Positions 2,064 through 32,987 of a DNA stretch of 45,585 bases are shown in pieces. The stretch's first letter is position 1. Each line of letters begins with the position of its first letter. The DNA comes from Bryobacteraceae bacterium (GTDB taxonomy: Bacteria > Acidobacteriota > Terriglobia > Bryobacterales > Bryobacteraceae): positions 1 through 45,585 of the forward strand of contig JANWVY010000016.1 in the NCBI GenBank assembly GCA_025056455.1, read 5' to 3'. Position numbers and translations under genes: made by a program. The notes under the pieces were generated by a model, which saw only the letters and a list, made by a program, of their open reading frames with translations, had not been told where the DNA came from and searched no databases.

Positions 2064-3343
2064 CGCTGCACATCACAGGCCTTAACCACCGCACGGCCCC
2101 GGTTGAGGTCAGGGAACGGCTGGCTTTCCCTGCACCAAGCCTGAGCGAAGCCCTGCGGCAGCTGATTTCCCTCGAAGGCGTTCAGGAGGGAATCATTCTC
2201 AGCACTTGCAACCGCGTTGAAGTGGCCGCCGTCTTGCAGCGTAACGACGGAGCACAACTGATGGCGTCCTTCTTGGAATCTAACCGCCAGGTTGCTGGCT
2301 CGCAGTTCCGTGCGCATCTCTACCACTACGAGGGAACAGAAGCCATCCGCCACCTCTTCCGCGTCGCTTCCAGCCTGGATTCCATGGTGGTGGGTGAACC
2401 GCAGATTCTTGGGCAGTTGAAGGAGGCCTATGCACAGGCGAAGGCGGCAGGAACGCTGGGCGGATTCCTAGAACCCTTGCTAAGCCGCGCCTTCAATGTC
2501 GCGAAGCGGGTGCGCACGGAAACAGGCATCGGCCAGAGCGCGGTTTCCGTCAGTTATGCCGCCGTTGAACTGGCGCGTGAAATCTTCGGCTCGCTTCGCG
2601 GGCACGCCGTTTTGTTGATTGGCGCTGGGAAAATGTCGGAGCTTGCGGCGCGCCACCTCCAGCGCGCCGGGGCTAGCAAAATTCTTGTTGCCAACCGCAC
2701 GCTGGCGCGGGCCCAAGAGATGGCGGCGCTTTTTTCTGGCAGCGTCGTTCCCTATGACAAGGTCCAGAGCGCCATGCACACTGCCGACATTGTGATTACC
2801 TCAAGCGGCGCTCCGCATTACATTCTGACCCGCGATTCCGTCCAGCGCGTCATGGCCCAACGCCGGGGCAAGCCCATTTTTCTGATCGACATCGCCGTGC
2901 CGCGCAATATCGAGCCGGCCGTGAATGAGTTGGATAACGTCTTTCTATATGACATGGATGATTTGGGCCGCTTGGTGGAACGAAACCGGCTGGCCCGCAG
3001 CGAGGAGGCAGCGCAGGCCGAAAAGATCATCGAAGAAGAAGTGGCCCGGACGGTGGCGCGACTACGCGAGCGCGAGGTGACACCGGTCATCGTCCGCTTG
3101 CAGGAGCAGCTTGAGCAAATGCGGTGCGCCGAGCTTGAGCGGGTGCGCTCGAAGCTGGGAGACATGACGCCTCAGCAGCAAGAAGCCATCGAGGCTCTCA
3201 CCAAATCTTTGCTGGCGAAGATCGCCCACGGGCCGATCACCGAGCTTCGCCGCCAGGCCTCCCAGGGCGAGCTGCACTCAACGGCAGAACTCATCCGCCG
3301 CATGTTCCGTTTGCCAGCCCAAGACCTCGAGACTCACGGCTAG
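2060..3343 (+). CDS. hemA: Glutamyl-tRNA reductase
   Basis: HemA reduces glutamyl-tRNA(Glu) to glutamate-1-semialdehyde with NADPH, the first committed step of C5 tetrapyrrole synthesis. The 427-residue length is normal for the family. The N-terminal catalytic domain has the motif STCNRVEV with the nucleophile Cys at residue 50, and VVGEPQILGQLKEAY follows. The NADPH-binding domain shows LIGAGKMSELAARHL, and the C-terminal part (residues about 310-420) is a charged helical dimerisation domain. The start is the ATG inside the ATGA overlap with the upstream membrane protein. The next gene on this strand is not hemC: hemA ends head-on with holB, the two stop codons overlapping at 3340-3343. The hem genes are therefore not clustered here beyond this pair. 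Confidence 0.96.
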   Translation: MTLHITGLNHRTAPVEVRERLAFPAPSLSEALRQLISLEGVQEGIILSTCNRVEVAAVLQRNDGAQLMASFLESNRQVAGSQFRAHLYHYEGTEAIRHLFRVASSLDSMVVGEPQILGQLKEAYAQAKAAGTLGGFLEPLLSRAFNVAKRVRTETGIGQSAVSVSYAAVELAREIFGSLRGHAVLLIGAGKMSELAARHLQRAGASKILVANRTLARAQEMAALFSGSVVPYDKVQSAMHTADIVITSSGAPHYILTRDSVQRVMAQRRGKPIFLIDIAVPRNIEPAVNELDNVFLYDMDDLGRLVERNRLARSEEAAQAEKIIEEEVARTVARLREREVTPVIVRLQEQLEQMRCAELERVRSKLGDMTPQQQEAIEALTKSLLAKIAHGPITELRRQASQGELHSTAELIRRMFRLPAQDLETHG

Positions 3344-4380
3344 GCTTCCCCTGCTTGCGCGCGCAATTCCACTGCAAAGGAATCAAGCGCTGCTCCCTTT
3401 TGAATATTCCGCCGGGCGAACTCCGCCATCTCATCCACTCTCCGGACGGCCGCCAGCAGCCATTCTCGAGAAACGGCAGCCGCCAGGCGCTCAAGTTCGG
3501 CTTGCAGATCCGGGTTGCGCACTGCCCGCCGTCCTTCTTTGACCAGGAGCACATCCTCGAGCAGAGCATAAAGGATTTTCAAGTAGGGTTCGAGTTTTTC
3601 GCTCTTGGACTCGGCAACCGCCTCCGCATGTTTCACCCAAGAAGCGAAACGGGCCTGCCCGCTTGCGACTTTCAACAGAGAGAGCATGCGCTTGCGCTGC
3701 AACTCCCATTGCTCCACATCCAGCGTAACGGCAAGGCCCGGGGAGCCACCGGCAAAGGCGAGGCGGCGGTCCGTTTCGCTCCATCCGCGAGAGCGAGCAA
3801 AGGCGAGCATCTGTTCGGGGGAAAGCGGCGAAAGCAAAAAAATCACCGCGCGGGAACGGATGGTGGGCAAAAGATCGTAAGCGTTTTGTGCGGTTGCTAG
3901 AAGGACCAGATGAGATGGAGGCTCTTCGAGGATTTTGAGCAAGGAGTTGGCGGCCTGGTCATTGGCACGGTCTAGCTGGTCGATGAGAAAGACGCGGTAT
4001 GAGCCTTTCCGCGGAGCAAACTGCGCGCGCTCTCGGAGCAGCCGCATCTGCTGGATGGAGATCTGCCGCAGCGGACCATCGGGACAGAAGGTAACAAAAT
4101 CGGGGTGGGTGGCGAAAAACAAAGGCTCATCCGCTCGCCGTTCCGAAGACCACTTTTCGCGTTCGGCTAAAATCTCCAAATTGGGGCGGAGACTCAAGTC
4201 GTCGGTCTCGATCTTTTCCGCATCGCCGAGCAAAGCAGCCGCAAAACGGCGCGCCAGAGTCGCTTTGCCAACGCCCTCCGGACCCGCAAGCAGCATGGTC
4301 TGCGGGATGCGATCCTGCTCGACCATCCGCGCAAGGGCCCGCGCCACGGCCGCATTTCCGAAAAAGTTGGGGAAACTCAC
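3340..4380 (-). CDS. holB: DNA polymerase III delta' subunit
   Basis: A 346-residue clamp-loader subunit of the DnaX/HolB AAA+ family, acting in the cytosol in the replicative polymerase. The N-terminal FGNAAVARAL and IPQTMLLAGPEGVGKATLARRF carry the P-loop, in which the residue after Lys is Ala (GKAT) rather than Thr/Ser. This agrees with delta' being a non-hydrolysing member. Further motifs are FLIDQLDRAN, ANSLLKILEEPP and the arginine-finger region TIRSRAVIF. The four zinc-binding Cys of E. coli delta' are absent: the segment after the P-loop contains no Cys. The start ATG at 4380 overlaps the stop of the upstream histidine kinase gene by 4 nt, so the two are probably one transcript. Confidence 0.9.
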   Translation of the reverse strand: MSFPNFFGNAAVARALARMVEQDRIPQTMLLAGPEGVGKATLARRFAAALLGDAEKIETDDLSLRPNLEILAEREKWSSERRADEPLFFATHPDFVTFCPDGPLRQISIQQMRLLRERAQFAPRKGSYRVFLIDQLDRANDQAANSLLKILEEPPSHLVLLATAQNAYDLLPTIRSRAVIFLLSPLSPEQMLAFARSRGWSETDRRLAFAGGSPGLAVTLDVEQWELQRKRMLSLLKVASGQARFASWVKHAEAVAESKSEKLEPYLKILYALLEDVLLVKEGRRAVRNPDLQAELERLAAAVSREWLLAAVRRVDEMAEFARRNIQKGAALDSFAVELRAQAGEA

Positions 4381-28430: not shown

Positions 28431-29303
28431 ATGAGTTGGCTTCTGGTCTTGCTGCTTGCTGTCTGCGCCCACGCCCAGCCTTCGCTCGTCGAGTTGTGGG
28501 AAGCGCGTACCATCAGCCAGCTGGAGCGCCTTGAACAAAGCATGGAAGGCCTTCTCGGGGTGGCCGCTATCGATCTCGTCTCCCTGCGCCTGCTGGCTTA
28601 TCACGGCGACACTCAATTCCCGCAAGCGAGCTCCATCAAAATTCCGATTCTGGTTGAGATGTATCGAGCCCAGGCCGAGGGCAAGTTTCGCTGGACGGAC
28701 GAAGTGACGCTATCCGCCCAGGATGTGGTGGGCGGAAGCGGCCATCTCAAAGAGAAACTGGCTGCCGGACCTCTTAAACTCACCTGGAGAGAGCTAGCGA
28801 CGGCGATGATCGAAACCAGCGACAATACGGCCACCAACCGCTGCATCCAGCTTGTGGGGCTGGCCAACGTAAACCGGACCTTAGATGAGTACGGATTGCG
28901 GCAGACCCGCCTCCAACGCATCATGATGGACACTGCCGCAGCCAGGCGTGATGAAGAGAACATTTCCACGCCAATTGAAATGGCCCGGCTCGTAGAGCGC
29001 ATCTATCAGGGTCGTGCTGTTAGCGAGCAAGCAAGCAAACAGATGCTCGATACGATGCGACTGGTGAAAGCACATTTCAAAAAAGCGATTCCCCAGGTCG
29101 ATATTGCCTCCAAGCCCGGCGGTATTCCTGGCGTGAAATGTGAAACTGGCGTCGTTTTTTTAAAGAACCGCCCCTATGTTCTCAGTGTCATGACGGCGAT
29201 GGTCCCTGAAAGCTCAGACATGGTGGAAAAAGCTGCCGCCATTGTGCACGCTCACTTTGAGAAACTGGCCGCCTCGAACCGCTACGGCCACAAGGTAGAA
29301 TGA
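28431..29303 (+). CDS. Class A beta-lactamase-like secreted serine hydrolase
   Basis: A 290-residue protein with signal peptide MSWLLVLLLAVCAHAQ. It has the penicillin-recognising fold motifs: Ser67-x-x-Lys70 (ASSIKIPIL), Ser130-Asp131-Asn132 (ETSDNTATN), a Glu-Asn segment at 176-177 (DEENISTPIEMA) in the place of the omega loop and KPG (SKPGGIPG) in place of KTG. Family members include true beta-lactamases and housekeeping D,D-peptidase relatives; the omega loop lacks the standard ExxLN form, so hydrolysis of beta-lactams is uncertain. It begins a plus-strand group with a PfpI-like gene and an ABC exporter and is divergent from the radical-SAM gene. Confidence 0.88.
   Translation: MSWLLVLLLAVCAHAQPSLVELWEARTISQLERLEQSMEGLLGVAAIDLVSLRLLAYHGDTQFPQASSIKIPILVEMYRAQAEGKFRWTDEVTLSAQDVVGGSGHLKEKLAAGPLKLTWRELATAMIETSDNTATNRCIQLVGLANVNRTLDEYGLRQTRLQRIMMDTAAARRDEENISTPIEMARLVERIYQGRAVSEQASKQMLDTMRLVKAHFKKAIPQVDIASKPGGIPGVKCETGVVFLKNRPYVLSVMTAMVPESSDMVEKAAAIVHAHFEKLAASNRYGHKVE
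29296..29301 (+). promoter_or_regulatory. -10 box TAGAAT of the PfpI-like gene
   Basis: TAGAAT is followed by GACGGGC (7 nt) and ATG 29309. It overlaps the end of the beta-lactamase-like gene. An in-frame ATG at 29300 lies inside the hexamer. No -35 is visible. Confidence 0.4.
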
Positions 29304-29308
29304 CGGGC

Positions 29309-29848
29309 ATGGAGCTGAAAGGAAGGCGAGTTGCGATTTTCGTCGACAATTTGTATCAGGAGATGGAGCTGTGGTATCCGCTCTACCGGTTTCAAGAAGG
29401 CGGTGCGGAGGTGGTTCTCGTAGGGGCCCTCGCGAATCACACCTACACCAGCAAGTTGGGATATCCGGCTACTTCGCAAAAATCTTATGAGGAAGTGGCA
29501 GCCAGGGACTTCGATGGCGTGATCATTCCCGGAGGCTATGCCCCGGACCATATGCGCCGGCACGCCAAGGCAAACCAGCTCGTGAAAGATCTCAACGATC
29601 AAGGTAAGCTGGTGGCGGCGATCTGTCATGGCCCCTGGGTGCTTTGCTCGGCGGGAGGCATGTTGAAGGGCCGCCGCGCCACAAGCTTTTTCGCAATCAA
29701 AGACGATTTGGTGAACGCAGGAGCCATCTGGGAAGATGCGGAGGTGGTGGTGGACGGCAATCTCGTCACTTCGCGCAAACCCGACGACCTGCCAGCATTT
29801 TGCCGGGCCTGCCTGGATGTTCTCCAACGGGTCGCGGTGGCCGTCTAG
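29309..29848 (+). CDS. DJ-1/PfpI family protein
   Basis: A 179-residue class-I glutamine amidotransferase-like protein. It begins MELKGRRVAIFVDN, the usual family start, which favours ATG 29309 over ATG 29300. The conserved acid is Glu18 (LYQEMELWYP), the nucleophile elbow is Cys106-His107 (AAICHGPWVL), and the loop IIPGGYAPDHMRR is typical of PfpI/YhbO. Such proteins act as stress-related glyoxalase, chaperone or deglycase candidates; I do not assign a reaction. It lies directly before the ABC ATPase, whose GTG follows its TAG without a gap. Confidence 0.9.
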   Translation: MELKGRRVAIFVDNLYQEMELWYPLYRFQEGGAEVVLVGALANHTYTSKLGYPATSQKSYEEVAARDFDGVIIPGGYAPDHMRRHAKANQLVKDLNDQGKLVAAICHGPWVLCSAGGMLKGRRATSFFAIKDDLVNAGAIWEDAEVVVDGNLVTSRKPDDLPAFCRACLDVLQRVAVAV

Positions 29849-30787
29849 GTGAGTGCTAACTCTCCCACTGCCGTCATTACTGTTCGCGGGCTCCGCAAGA
29901 GCTACGCAAACGTAGAGGCCGTTTGCGGCCTCGACTTCGACGTGTTTGAAGGCGAAGTGTTTGGTCTTCTCGGCCCAAACGGAGCAGGCAAAACCACCAC
30001 GATTGAAATCCTCGAAGGACTGCGTCAGCCTACGGCAGGCTACGTGCGCGTGCTGGGCTACGACCCCACACGGCAGTCTATGGCCATTAAGGATCGCATC
30101 GGAGTCAGCTTACAGGCGACCAACCTTCCAGAAAAGATCAAAGTGGTGGAAGCCGTGGAGCTGTTCCAGGCCTTCTACTCGCGCAGCGTCGACACCTTGC
30201 AGTTGCTCAAGCGGCTGCAACTCGAAGACAAGCGCGATGCTTATTATTCGACGCTTTCAGGAGGTCAAAAACAGCGGCTGGCCCTCGCTCTCGCCATGGT
30301 GAACGATCCGCAACTTCTGTTTCTGGACGAGCCGACGACGGGCCTGGATCCGCAAGTGCGGCTGGAAATTCACGGTCTAATCCAGGAATTGCGCGATGCG
30401 AAGCGCACAATCCTGCTCACCACACACTACATTGAGGAAGCGGAAAAGCTCTGCGACCGCGTGGCAATTGTCGATTCAGGGAGGATCATCGAACTCGGCG
30501 CCCCAGCAGAAATTCAGCGGCGTACGCTTGGAAATTCTCTTTTGGAGCTGCATACCGCTCAGCCTTTGCCTGAGGAAACTATACCGAGCTTCTGCGGCGC
30601 TGAGAAACTTCATTTCTCCGCAGATCGAAAGCAAATGATGGCGCACACCACCAAGCCCGCACGCACTTTGGTTGAGATTGTGAAGTGGGTCGATCAACTG
30701 GGCATTGAACTTACCGATATCCACCTCAAGCGCCCCACTTTAGAAGATGTGTTTTTAGAGCTGACGGGGCGGCGGCTCCGCGATTGA
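29849..30787 (+). CDS. ABC transporter ATP-binding protein (DrrA/CcmA type)
   Basis: A 312-residue ATPase for an ABC-2 type exporter. Motifs are Walker A GPNGAGKTTT, Q-loop GVSLQATNLPEKIKV, signature LSGGQKQRLALALAM, Walker B LLFLDEPTTGLDPQ and H-loop LLTTHYIEEAEKL. A C-terminal extension of about 80 residues follows the core, as in DrrA/NatA-like proteins. The start is GTG 29849, immediately after the stop of the PfpI-like gene. The permease-amidohydrolase gene follows after 4 nt, so the two proteins should assemble. Confidence 0.94.
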   Translation: MSANSPTAVITVRGLRKSYANVEAVCGLDFDVFEGEVFGLLGPNGAGKTTTIEILEGLRQPTAGYVRVLGYDPTRQSMAIKDRIGVSLQATNLPEKIKVVEAVELFQAFYSRSVDTLQLLKRLQLEDKRDAYYSTLSGGQKQRLALALAMVNDPQLLFLDEPTTGLDPQVRLEIHGLIQELRDAKRTILLTTHYIEEAEKLCDRVAIVDSGRIIELGAPAEIQRRTLGNSLLELHTAQPLPEETIPSFCGAEKLHFSADRKQMMAHTTKPARTLVEIVKWVDQLGIELTDIHLKRPTLEDVFLELTGRRLRD

Positions 30788-30791
30788 CGCC

Positions 30792-32987
30792 ATGCGCAGC
30801 TACTTGGCTTTCATTAAGGCCACGCTGAAGCTGGTGATGCGCGACCGCCTGGTCTTGTTCTTCAACTACATCCTTCCCCTGATCTTCTTTGTCGTCTTTG
30901 CGCAAAGCTTTCACGCCGAACGGGGCGGCGCCATACACCAGATCCTCACCATGGTGCTGATCCTGGGCGTTTTGGGCAGTGGTTTTTTTGGGGCTGGCAT
31001 GCGGGCCGTTCAGGAGCGCGAAACCAACATCTTGCGGCGCTTCAAAGTCGCGCCCATCACGCCCTTGCCGATCTTAGTGGCAAGCCTCGTCACCGGATGG
31101 CTGAGCTATTTGCCTTCAGTACTGATTGTGCTAGGGATTGCGCATTTTTACTACCGGATGCCCTGGCCGGAAAACTGGCTTTCTTTGCTCGCGCTGCAAT
31201 CTTTGGGACTCGTCGCCTTCCGCAGCGTAGGTCTCATCATCGCAAGCGTCGTCAACTCCATGCAGGAAAGCCAAATCGTCATCCAGCTGCTCTACCTGCC
31301 GATGTTATTTCTAAGCGGAGCCACGTTTCCAGTCGACGCTTTTCCGGGTTGGCTGCAAATCGTCGCTCAGTATTTACCAACCTCCTATCTCTACACGGGG
31401 CTTCAAGGGATCCTCTTGCAGAAGGATACCTTGCGTGAGCACACGGCGCCGGTTCTCGCCTTATTGACAACCTTAGCGGTGTCCCTCTTCATTAGCGTCA
31501 AGCTATTTCGCTGGGAGAAGGATGAGACGGTCGCACCCTCGGCCAAGCTTTGGATCGGGGCGGTACTGCTTCCCTTTTTGCTGCTTGGCAGCTACCAGGC
31601 TTATACGAAAGAGAACGTCAGCAAAGCCAAGGCCGTGTTGCGCGAGATGCGGCGCAATTCTGCCGTACTCATTCGCGGTCCTCGCATTTTTGTCGGGGAC
31701 GGCCGGGTGATTCCCGCTGGCGGCGTTCTCGTGCAAAATGGCAAAATCGTGGAGGTCTTTGATTCCGTTCCCTCGGAAAAAGACTTTCGCGCAGAAACGC
31801 TCGAGGCGCAGGGCAAGACCCTGCTTCCTGGCTTGATTGACTTTCACGTACACTTGCTGGGACCGGGCGGCGTTGCAGATTCAGACAAGAACTTCCAGCC
31901 CGAGGACGCCGTTCAGCGGGCGCTTGCCGCCTACCTATTCTGCGGCGTGACGGCAGTACGCAGCGCCGGTGACACGCCGGCCATCCTCTCCCGACCTCAG
32001 GCTCGAATTGCCCGGGGAGAACTGCTGGGAGCGGAGCTTTTCCACTCTGGCAAGATGTTCACCGTGGCGGGAGGCCACGGCACTCAATTCTTTGAGCAGC
32101 TGCCCCCGGGCGTGCGCCAGCTGGCCGAGAGAGAAACGCTCTTTTTGCCCGCAAACGCGGCTCAGGCCCGCCAACAGGTCAGAGAGAACAAAGCTGCGGG
32201 TGCATCCGCGACGAAGGCGGTTCTCGAGGCCGGATTTGCTGGCATGCTGTTTCCCCGCCTGGAGGTAACGATCCTGCGCGCCATCGCTGAGGAATCACGC
32301 GCCCAGGGATTGCCACTCACCGTCCATACAGGTGATAAGCGGGACGTGAGCGACGCACTTGGCGTACAAGCCGCCTCAATCGAGCATGGCTCAGCCAGAG
32401 AACTTCTCCCGTCCGAAACGCTGCAAGCCCTTGCCAAGCAGCGCATCTACTACGATCCGACGCTCGCCGTCATTGAGGCTCTCGAACAGCTCGCCTCAGG
32501 CAAGCCGGATTTGCTCGACAGTTCGCTCGTGCAGCAAGTGGCGCCCGAAGGGCTCATCGATCGAACCCGCAAGGCTCTGACCAGTCCTGCGATCGAAGAG
32601 CGCCGCCAGCGCCTGCTGGCCAGCCCCACGAAGCTCAAAATCGCCATGGAGAATCTTCGCCGAGCCTGGGAAGCTGGAGTACCGCTGGTGGCAGGTAGCG
32701 ATGCGGGCAATCTCTTGCTGGTGCACGGACCTGGGATTCACCGGGAGCTTCAACTGTGGGTCAAAGCGGGCATTCCTGCAACGGTCGCCCTTCAGGCGGC
32801 CACGCTCAACGCCGCAAGACTGCTGGGCGTTGACCACCGCATCGGGGCCATTCGCAAGGGGAACGACGCCACGATGTTGCTAGTCGACGGCAATCCCCTC
32901 GAGGAGATTGCCGCCACGGAACGCATCTCAGCCATATTCTTTCGCGGCGAGCGCGTCACCCGGGCCGGACTTTTCAAACAGGAATGA
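30792..32987 (+). CDS. Fusion of ABC-2 type permease and amidohydrolase
   Basis: One unbroken frame of 731 residues joins two complete families. Residues 1-245 are an ABC-2 permease with six hydrophobic segments and ERETNILRRFKVAPITPLP, the conserved cytosolic loop. Residues 252-272 (KLWIGAVLLPFLLLGSYQAY) form a seventh hydrophobic segment. Residues 295-728 are an imidazolonepropionase/prolidase-like amidohydrolase with the full metal set: His352/His354 (DFHVHLLG), Lys475 as the carboxylated-lysine candidate, His512 (VHTGD), His532 (IEHGS) and Asp637 (GSDAGN). The ABC-2 fold ends in the cytosol after six helices, so the extra helix predicts a periplasmic hydrolase. The preceding ATPase gene is 4 nt away. 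Substrates such as cyclic amides, hydantoins or Xaa-Pro dipeptides are possible, none proven. Confidence 0.9.
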   Translation: MRSYLAFIKATLKLVMRDRLVLFFNYILPLIFFVVFAQSFHAERGGAIHQILTMVLILGVLGSGFFGAGMRAVQERETNILRRFKVAPITPLPILVASLVTGWLSYLPSVLIVLGIAHFYYRMPWPENWLSLLALQSLGLVAFRSVGLIIASVVNSMQESQIVIQLLYLPMLFLSGATFPVDAFPGWLQIVAQYLPTSYLYTGLQGILLQKDTLREHTAPVLALLTTLAVSLFISVKLFRWEKDETVAPSAKLWIGAVLLPFLLLGSYQAYTKENVSKAKAVLREMRRNSAVLIRGPRIFVGDGRVIPAGGVLVQNGKIVEVFDSVPSEKDFRAETLEAQGKTLLPGLIDFHVHLLGPGGVADSDKNFQPEDAVQRALAAYLFCGVTAVRSAGDTPAILSRPQARIARGELLGAELFHSGKMFTVAGGHGTQFFEQLPPGVRQLAERETLFLPANAAQARQQVRENKAAGASATKAVLEAGFAGMLFPRLEVTILRAIAEESRAQGLPLTVHTGDKRDVSDALGVQAASIEHGSARELLPSETLQALAKQRIYYDPTLAVIEALEQLASGKPDLLDSSLVQQVAPEGLIDRTRKALTSPAIEERRQRLLASPTKLKIAMENLRRAWEAGVPLVAGSDAGNLLLVHGPGIHRELQLWVKAGIPATVALQAATLNAARLLGVDHRIGAIRKGNDATMLLVDGNPLEEIAATERISAIFFRGERVTRAGLFKQE

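Follow-up and report, generated by a model that had tools for sequence, protein, structure and literature searches.

An ABC-2 permease–amidohydrolase fusion in Bryobacteraceae whose hydrolase domain is retained in many relatives that lack its metal site

The fusion gene and its ATPase partner

The window considered in this work, viz. a stretch of 45,585 nucleotides (nt) of DNA from a Bryobacteraceae bacterium (Acidobacteriota, Bryobacterales), is the entire contig JANWVY010000016.1 of a 4.98-Mb, 29-contig genome (assembly GCA_025056455.1). The gene of interest, at positions 30792..32987 on the + strand (as are the other features given with window coordinates), codes for a protein of 731 amino acids (aa) in which a permease of the ATP-binding cassette type 2 (ABC-2) kind, a seventh hydrophobic helix (putative transmembrane helix 7, TM7) and an amidohydrolase domain are joined in a single open reading frame (ORF). 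This architecture was proposed in an earlier note made from the sequence alone, and it is borne out both by Pfam and by an AlphaFold2 model. The matches to ABC2_membrane (PF01061, residues 5-208, 79.1 bits versus a cut-off of 26.9), ABC2_membrane_3 (PF12698, residues 44-236, 81.6 bits versus 31.6) and Amidohydro_1 (PF01979, residues 343-721, 91.8 bits versus 25) are all above the curated cut-offs. The structural model, for which 47 family sequences were used, five of them from members lacking metal ligands by point changes, has a mean predicted local distance difference test (pLDDT) score of 89.8 and a predicted TM-score (pTM) of 0.87. In this model, a six-helix permease part (residues 1-244, 30792..31523) is followed by a long helix at residues 249-272 (31536..31607), identified also by its hydropathy, which is TM7, then by a helix at residues 274-288 (31611..31655), which conservation and charge mark as a basic linker, and lastly by the hydrolase domain (residues 290-731, 31659..32984), which is also recognized by Foldseek.

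The gene directly upstream (29849..30787), the first in a conserved two-gene unit, encodes an ABC ATPase of 312 aa that is DrrA/NodI-like (PF00005, 106 bits). Its stop at 30787 is separated from the fusion start at 30792 by the 4 nt reported earlier. The two genes resemble the DrrAB / NodIJ-type ABC-2 (type V) exporters in being an ATPase and permease gene pair with a PF01061/PF12698 permease, and the top NCBIfam match of the ATPase is to drrA (TIGR01188, 275.2 bits). However, this score is below the cut-off of 312, the permease likewise misses that of drrB (TIGR01247, 53.1 versus 223 bits), both proteins score under the curated cut-offs for DrrA, DrrB, NodI and NodJ, and the fusion differs from these systems by its seventh helix and a C-terminal domain of 440 residues.

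In the hydrolase domain of the window's protein all six metal ligands are in place by alignment, as had been claimed: His352 and His354 of the HxH motif (31845..31853), Lys475, the expected carboxylated metal bridge (32214..32216), His512 (32325..32327), His532 (32385..32387) and Asp637, a catalytic as well as a metal residue (32700..32702). These residues line up with the ligands of related enzymes, both fused and stand-alone. In a phmmer alignment to the structure 2qs8 five of them are in register and Lys475 aligns only after a gap is shifted by eye. Foldseek searches with the model gave 2qs8_A as the best match (E 1.6e-24, TM-score by target 0.85), and the top structures were the Xaa-Pro dipeptidase 2qs8, a Thermonema amidohydrolase (9kov), Cc2672 (3mtw) and the ochratoxin amidase ADH3. 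Relatives are reported to cleave Xaa-Pro dipeptides and N-acyl prolines (PMC11511702). With the group of Xaa-Pro dipeptidases, prolidases, aminoacylases and ochratoxin amidases (2qs8, 3mtw Cc2672, 3feq/3n2c Sgx9260c, ADH3) the domain shares the fold, the six ligands and a GGH motif, the His of which is His429 (32076..32078). It differs from this group in being tethered to an exporter in the membrane, in scoring far under the Xaa-Pro dipeptidase equivalog NF051886 (149.2 versus 500 bits), in the loss of the active site among the relatives of the fusion described below, and in carrying about 30 more residues between His532 and Asp637. This extra segment, recognized by motif spacing and conservation, lies at residues ~570-612 (32499..32627).

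Conservation of the fusion in related genomes

The search of related genomes for this architecture that the earlier note proposed found the permease in 158 of the 237 genomes of the window's family (E of 1e-40 or better), many of these genomes being draft bins. From these 158 genomes 149 proteins were fetched, each gene being from a different genome, and 140 of them are whole with the domain in one frame. The nine that were dropped from the count comprise five genes cut by contig ends, two that are broken, L149 having an in-frame stop and L124 a frame break, and two that lack the domain (L178 and L187). In L149 (genome G633) the stop follows 267 codons and the hydrolase is otherwise complete downstream, and this may be either a real break or an error. 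The fusion is present in the named isolate KBS 96 (L263), and a shrunken form of it, described below, in two single-contig genomes (G569 and G570). A joint created by sequencing or assembly is ruled out by the single frame in 140 of 149 genes and by these isolate and single-contig genomes. The other arrangement that would have undone the fusion, viz. two separate genes in the relatives, was not encountered: tblastn searches of the fetched flanks of unfused permeases (3.8 kb each for L178 and L187, 10.5 kb for L195) revealed no separate hydrolase gene.

Outside the family, nine genomes besides the window's own, among 396 sampled from the phylum, contain the permease (E of 1e-30 or better), which is fused in one of them (L040/L078, 905 aa). 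In the order to which the L078 genome belongs, three of ten genomes gave matches, and all three are fused (L078, L079 and L080, with L079 cut by a contig end). The L078 / L192 fusion (G435) also bears an additional C-terminal CIA30 domain (PF08547, 78.8 bits). The best 80 of 195 relatives named from GTDB genomes belong to Acidobacteriota, many of them to Bryobacterales/Bryobacteraceae, by their labels, with one bin labelled Chthoniobacterales; these are largely the same organisms as in the family set and are not an independent count. In one genome with a full fusion there is, in addition, a second permease copy (G006:C101:10154-10963), which is 45% identical over query residues 1-271 and contains one in-frame stop.

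Where 700 nt or more of sequence was available upstream, a same-strand ATPase gene was there at 156/156 loci, 13 being from the outside-family or unfused sets. The three Walker and signature motif patterns are all matched in the ATPases at 130 of the 141 family or near-family loci scanned (35/35 where the hydrolase domain is internally deleted, 69/78 where it is intact, 17/18 where ligands are lost by point changes and 9/10 where the gene is broken or unfused), and the misses may be real or reflect the strictness of the patterns.

Loss of the active site

Based on the six ligands, the 140 family proteins fall into three classes: 82 have all six (724-741 aa), 20 miss from one to six of them with the barrel still present (point-loss; the 5' end is missing in one of these, L025) and 38 are internally deleted (567-690 aa). 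Hence, 58 of the 140 proteins are without at least one metal ligand, and five of these are without just one. His429, which was not used for sorting the classes, is a His in 82/82 intact, 3/20 point-loss and 0/38 deleted proteins; since it tracks the ligand classes, the active sites appear to be either whole or collapsed. As a control, 27 of 31 stand-alone relatives, from 23 genomes, keep all six ligands, and at least one of the four misses, a protein of 420 aa, is probably so distant that it aligns poorly. Another stand-alone, signal-bearing relative (L289 in G058, 590 aa) has three ligands absent (SHAFHD), and from its sequence the decay may extend beyond the fused proteins.

Deleted forms are found in 16 genus groups and point-loss forms in 10. 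When the intact state is taken as ancestral, the ligand losses correspond to 21 events on the permease tree and also on the permease plus ATPase tree (FastTree with Shimodaira-Hasegawa (SH)-like supports), and to 11-20 events once branches with a support below 0.8 to 0.99 have been collapsed and neighbours have been merged. The internal deletions alone account for 14 and 13 events on the two trees, or 7-12 after collapsing. These deletions are alike, as 33 of the 38 remove most of residues 434-524 in frame, so that the whole stretch with Lys475 and His512 is gone. Their left edges fall within 417-433 and most of the right ones within 524-533 or 551-557. In the window's protein the recurrently deleted block corresponds to residues ~422-552 (32055..32447). 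It covers, in the AlphaFold2 model of the intact form, the three strands bearing Lys475, His512 and His532, and is bounded by strands 415-418 and 553-555. The remaining five deleted proteins (L061, L067, L073, L075 and L091) show patchy losses. A clade formed by L061, L063, L064, L073, L075 and L091 is graded in length (567, 597, 644, 644, 658 and 676 aa, listed by size) with its ligands largely gone throughout, and this gradation, together with the pairs L020/L026 and L131/L177, suggests from the sequences that ligand loss came first and trimming later.

One clade of 18 shrunken genes covers four genera and has kept the same remnant, Arg288 of the basic linker helix is present in 38/38 shrunken and 79/82 intact proteins, and an L-x(3)-L-x(2)-Q pattern (L575, L579 and Q582) in the extra segment is retained by the shrunken proteins. 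An AlphaFold2 model of one of them (L231, 586 aa), for which 30 sequences including 11 intact ones were used, has a pLDDT of 91.2 and a pTM of 0.88, and its best Foldseek matches are again amidohydrolases, these being partial (TM-score by target 0.41-0.53, root-mean-square deviation 9-15 Angstrom). No close replacement enzyme was found in any of the 10 shrunken-form genomes searched (10/10), where the other near-full-span matches are at most 32% identical and one local match is 43% identical over ~110 residues.

Selection on the retained domain

The ratios of nonsynonymous to synonymous substitutions (dN/dS, or omega; Nei-Gojobori method) were compared for close pairs of genes with permease identities of 82-99.5%. 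The median for the fused parts is 0.18-0.19 in 15 deleted pairs (retained parts), 0.10-0.14 in 11 point-loss pairs and 0.11-0.17 in 24 intact pairs, while the permease medians in the same analysis are 0.08-0.10. The ligand-less domains, with omega of 0.10-0.19, are under purifying selection and are not drifting. The frame of the changes points in the same direction: 14 deletion events are in frame versus five events that lose or break the C-terminal part, an excess with a rough binomial P of 4e-4 if a third of deletions are expected to keep the frame (0.002 and 0.017 when fewer events are counted). Because ligand losses recur while the domain stays under selection, the members can do without catalysis but mostly not without the domain. 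By their sequences the shrunken and point-loss relatives, though not the window's protein, would fit the description of a pseudoenzyme, in which a catalytic motif is lost and the domain retained.

Membrane topology and origin of the fusion

According to the earlier note, the seventh helix would put the hydrolase outside. An odd count of membrane crossings from an N-terminus in the cytosol would have this effect. A seventh hydrophobic helix is present in 13/13 unfused homologues examined, and therefore it either predates the fusion or is independent of it; the domain may have been added to a permease whose end already lay after TM7, or the helix may have outlived a domain that was lost. The best 17-residue Kyte-Doolittle mean for TM7 is 1.91 over 146 family proteins versus 1.31 (maximum 1.98) inside the hydrolase. 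In addition, 26 of 29 stand-alone hydrolase relatives have a signal-like hydrophobic segment ahead of the domain, due to which the ancestral hydrolase was probably exported. However, the segment after TM7 (residues 271-291) is basic, with a mean net charge of +3.3 over the 146 proteins, as would be expected in the cytosol, and since the loops assigned to the cytosol are no more basic (net +3.3, +2.0, +2.0 and one -1.0), charge does not favour a periplasmic hydrolase. Weighing the helix and the signals of the relatives against the charge, it is our judgement that the domain probably lies on the exoplasmic side, and to this extent the earlier placement is supported.

With regard to the origin of the fusion, the hydrolase tree groups three fused lineages (f1, f66 and f89) apart from 24 stand-alone proteins (branch support 82; the f89 branch is long). 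The spacing between the motifs of His532 and Asp637 is 95-101 in 5/5 family fusions and 101 in L078, versus 68, 68, 68, 68, 69, 108 and 121 in the seven stand-alone relatives that yielded both motifs. However, the permease tree places unfused permeases between fused f1 and f66, which speaks against a single fusion, and the trees would fit a single old fusion with losses, transfer, or repeated fusion. One of the unfused permeases (L039 / L195 in G316) is from another family, is 51% identical to the window's permease and is nested in the clade of the window's family; by its position it looks like a transfer followed by loss of the hydrolase. In three further unfused homologues (L042 at 2454-3797, L044 at 2448-3743 and L046 from 1770) the permease precedes a long protein with multiple helices and an EETIYR motif, which is reminiscent of the CPBP intramembrane proteases; Pfam gave no family for the cut piece of L042.

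Genes neighbouring the two-gene unit

In the window a class A beta-lactamase-like gene (PF13354) at 28431-29303 overlaps the next gene, DJ-1/PfpI (29300-29848), the stop of which abuts the GTG start of the ATPase gene, and the genes from 28431 to 32987 form a tight, same-strand run. Similar genes occur upstream at other loci, DJ-1/PfpI at at least 15 of the 81 loci surveyed and the beta-lactamase-like gene at at least 6 of 81. These counts are lower bounds, as the naive ORF caller used recovered the ATPase itself at just 55 of the 81. A larger conserved operon was rejected, the ATPase being the sole common neighbour at these loci, and we take the ATPase plus the permease-domain fusion as the conserved unit.

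Interpretation of the fused domain

As catalysis is optional and yet the domain is kept, a structural part at the exit of the exporter is the simplest account of these results. The explanation that we favour on balance is that an exoplasmic domain structurally serves the exporter, with hydrolysis as an optional, ancestral activity. According to this proposal, the two genes would form a type V (ABC-2) exporter whose permease ends in TM7, and this helix would carry the chain across the inner membrane, with the large C-terminal domain on the outer side. The ancestor of the domain would be an exported enzyme, an amidohydrolase of the Xaa-Pro dipeptidase / aminoacylase (M38-like) group, whose fusion to the permease would be old. 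The conserved function of the domain would be non-catalytic, in that it would pack on the permease via TM7, the basic helix 274-288 and a split beta-sandwich, most likely acting at the exit as a gate, an adaptor or a cargo-binding scaffold. The intact members (82/140, the window's included) would, as their sequences suggest, probably hydrolyse an amide or peptide bond as well, one that plausibly belongs to the exported compound, whereas in other members catalysis would have been dropped and the scaffold would have stayed.

Several observations, besides the charge after TM7 and the branching of the permease tree already noted, tell against this proposal. Many of the genomes are draft bins and five of the 20 point-loss proteins miss a single ligand. 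The L231 model, as a prediction, is no proof that a shrunken domain folds. Three permeases of the clade (L178, L187 and L039, the last of another family) are devoid of the entire domain, and two further fusion genes are broken (L124 and L149); because of these cases the domain is not strictly required. Lastly, besides the ATPase no widely conserved neighbour gene was seen around the fusion at the 81 loci.

Of the other explanations, the least improbable is the earlier proposal that the transporter processes its cargo on release, i.e. that a working exoplasmic amidase or dipeptidase trims each exported molecule and the fusion is kept for this reason. The window's protein and 82 of the 140 members do possess the six ligands and His429, and the nearest structures are dipeptidases, aminoacylase-like prolidases and amide hydrolases (PMC11511702). 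However, as a general rule cargo processing is unlikely, because 58 of the 140 members miss one or more ligands, 33 of them the whole Lys475/His512 stretch, with the domain nonetheless under purifying selection and no close replacement seen in 10/10 shrunken-form genomes; it can apply to the intact lineages only. The companion suggestion, an exporter tethered to a hydrolase domain, is supported. Less probable still is mechanotransmission of the MacB or LolCDE kind, in which the ATPase would move the exoplasmic domain onto a periplasmic or lipid substrate or a partner without pumping cargo. The retention of the domain without catalysis is in keeping with it, and the whole-chain pTM values of 0.87 and 0.88 suggest a fixed arrangement, in the models, of the domain and the membrane part. 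However, the permease has an ordinary ABC-2 fold, and its conserved neighbours include no gene for an adaptor or an outer-membrane partner (81 loci, naive ORF caller).

We regard as quite improbable a cytosolic hydrolase, for which the seventh helix would be re-entrant or lie at the surface and the domain would feed or inspect cargo before export: the net charge of +3.3 after TM7, similar to that of the cytosolic loops, agrees with it, but the 24-residue hydrophobic helix of the model, found also in 13/13 unfused homologues, and the export signals of 26/29 stand-alone relatives do not. Slow neutral decay of a once-useful enzyme with transitional remnants, although consistent with the graded erosion in one clade (676 to 567 aa) and the occasional complete loss (L178, L187 and L039), is hardly credible given the omega of 0.10-0.19 in dead domains, the one remnant shared by 18 shrunken genes in four genera and the 14 in-frame deletion events versus five of loss or breakage (rough binomial P 4e-4).

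Each half of the fusion is of a known kind and scores below the curated cut-offs of the named subfamilies, and it is the evolutionary pattern that would surprise a specialist. The remark in the earlier note that its author knew of no described system of such architecture agrees with the literature searched, the coverage of which leaves out most subscription papers and preprints, and which contained no description of a permease-amidohydrolase fusion or of its decay. Fusions of bacterial ABC-2 permeases with M1 aminopeptidases, a combination that appears in annotation names, would likewise place a metallohydrolase, of another family, in one chain; nothing relevant to them was seen in the literature searched.

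The best published parallel found is provided by the heavy chains 4F2hc and rBAT, whose bulky, alpha-glucosidase-like ectodomains serve heteromeric amino acid transporters with catalysis that is unclear or none (PMC8537225). The resemblance is by way of working only and is meant as an analogy. The enzyme fold and the transporter are unrelated, and the heavy chain is a separate subunit in vertebrates; given the match of the model to the amidohydrolase fold, homology of the fused domain to the SLC3 heavy chains is unlikely. Going a step beyond the structural role favoured above, one may tentatively, and at somewhat less than even chances, envisage a class of exporters with an exoplasmic pseudo-amidohydrolase module, in which an exported metalloenzyme, captured by a seven-helix ABC-2 permease, became a required gate or adaptor and its metal site was then stripped many times independently (21 inferred events), with recurrent trimming by the same three-strand excision, making it a bacterial counterpart of the 4F2hc/rBAT ectodomains of which one family contains living as well as dead versions.

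The intact, point-dead and trimmed versions of the domain within one family constitute a natural experiment, in which an enzyme domain would be turning into a structural part of a transporter, and both the intact and the dead versions keep the frame and are subject to selection, some of them in finished genomes. If the domain is a gate or an adaptor, then ABC-2 exporters can carry an integral exoplasmic module, and the label "amidohydrolase" assigned by homology would be wrong for about four in ten members of this family (58/140).

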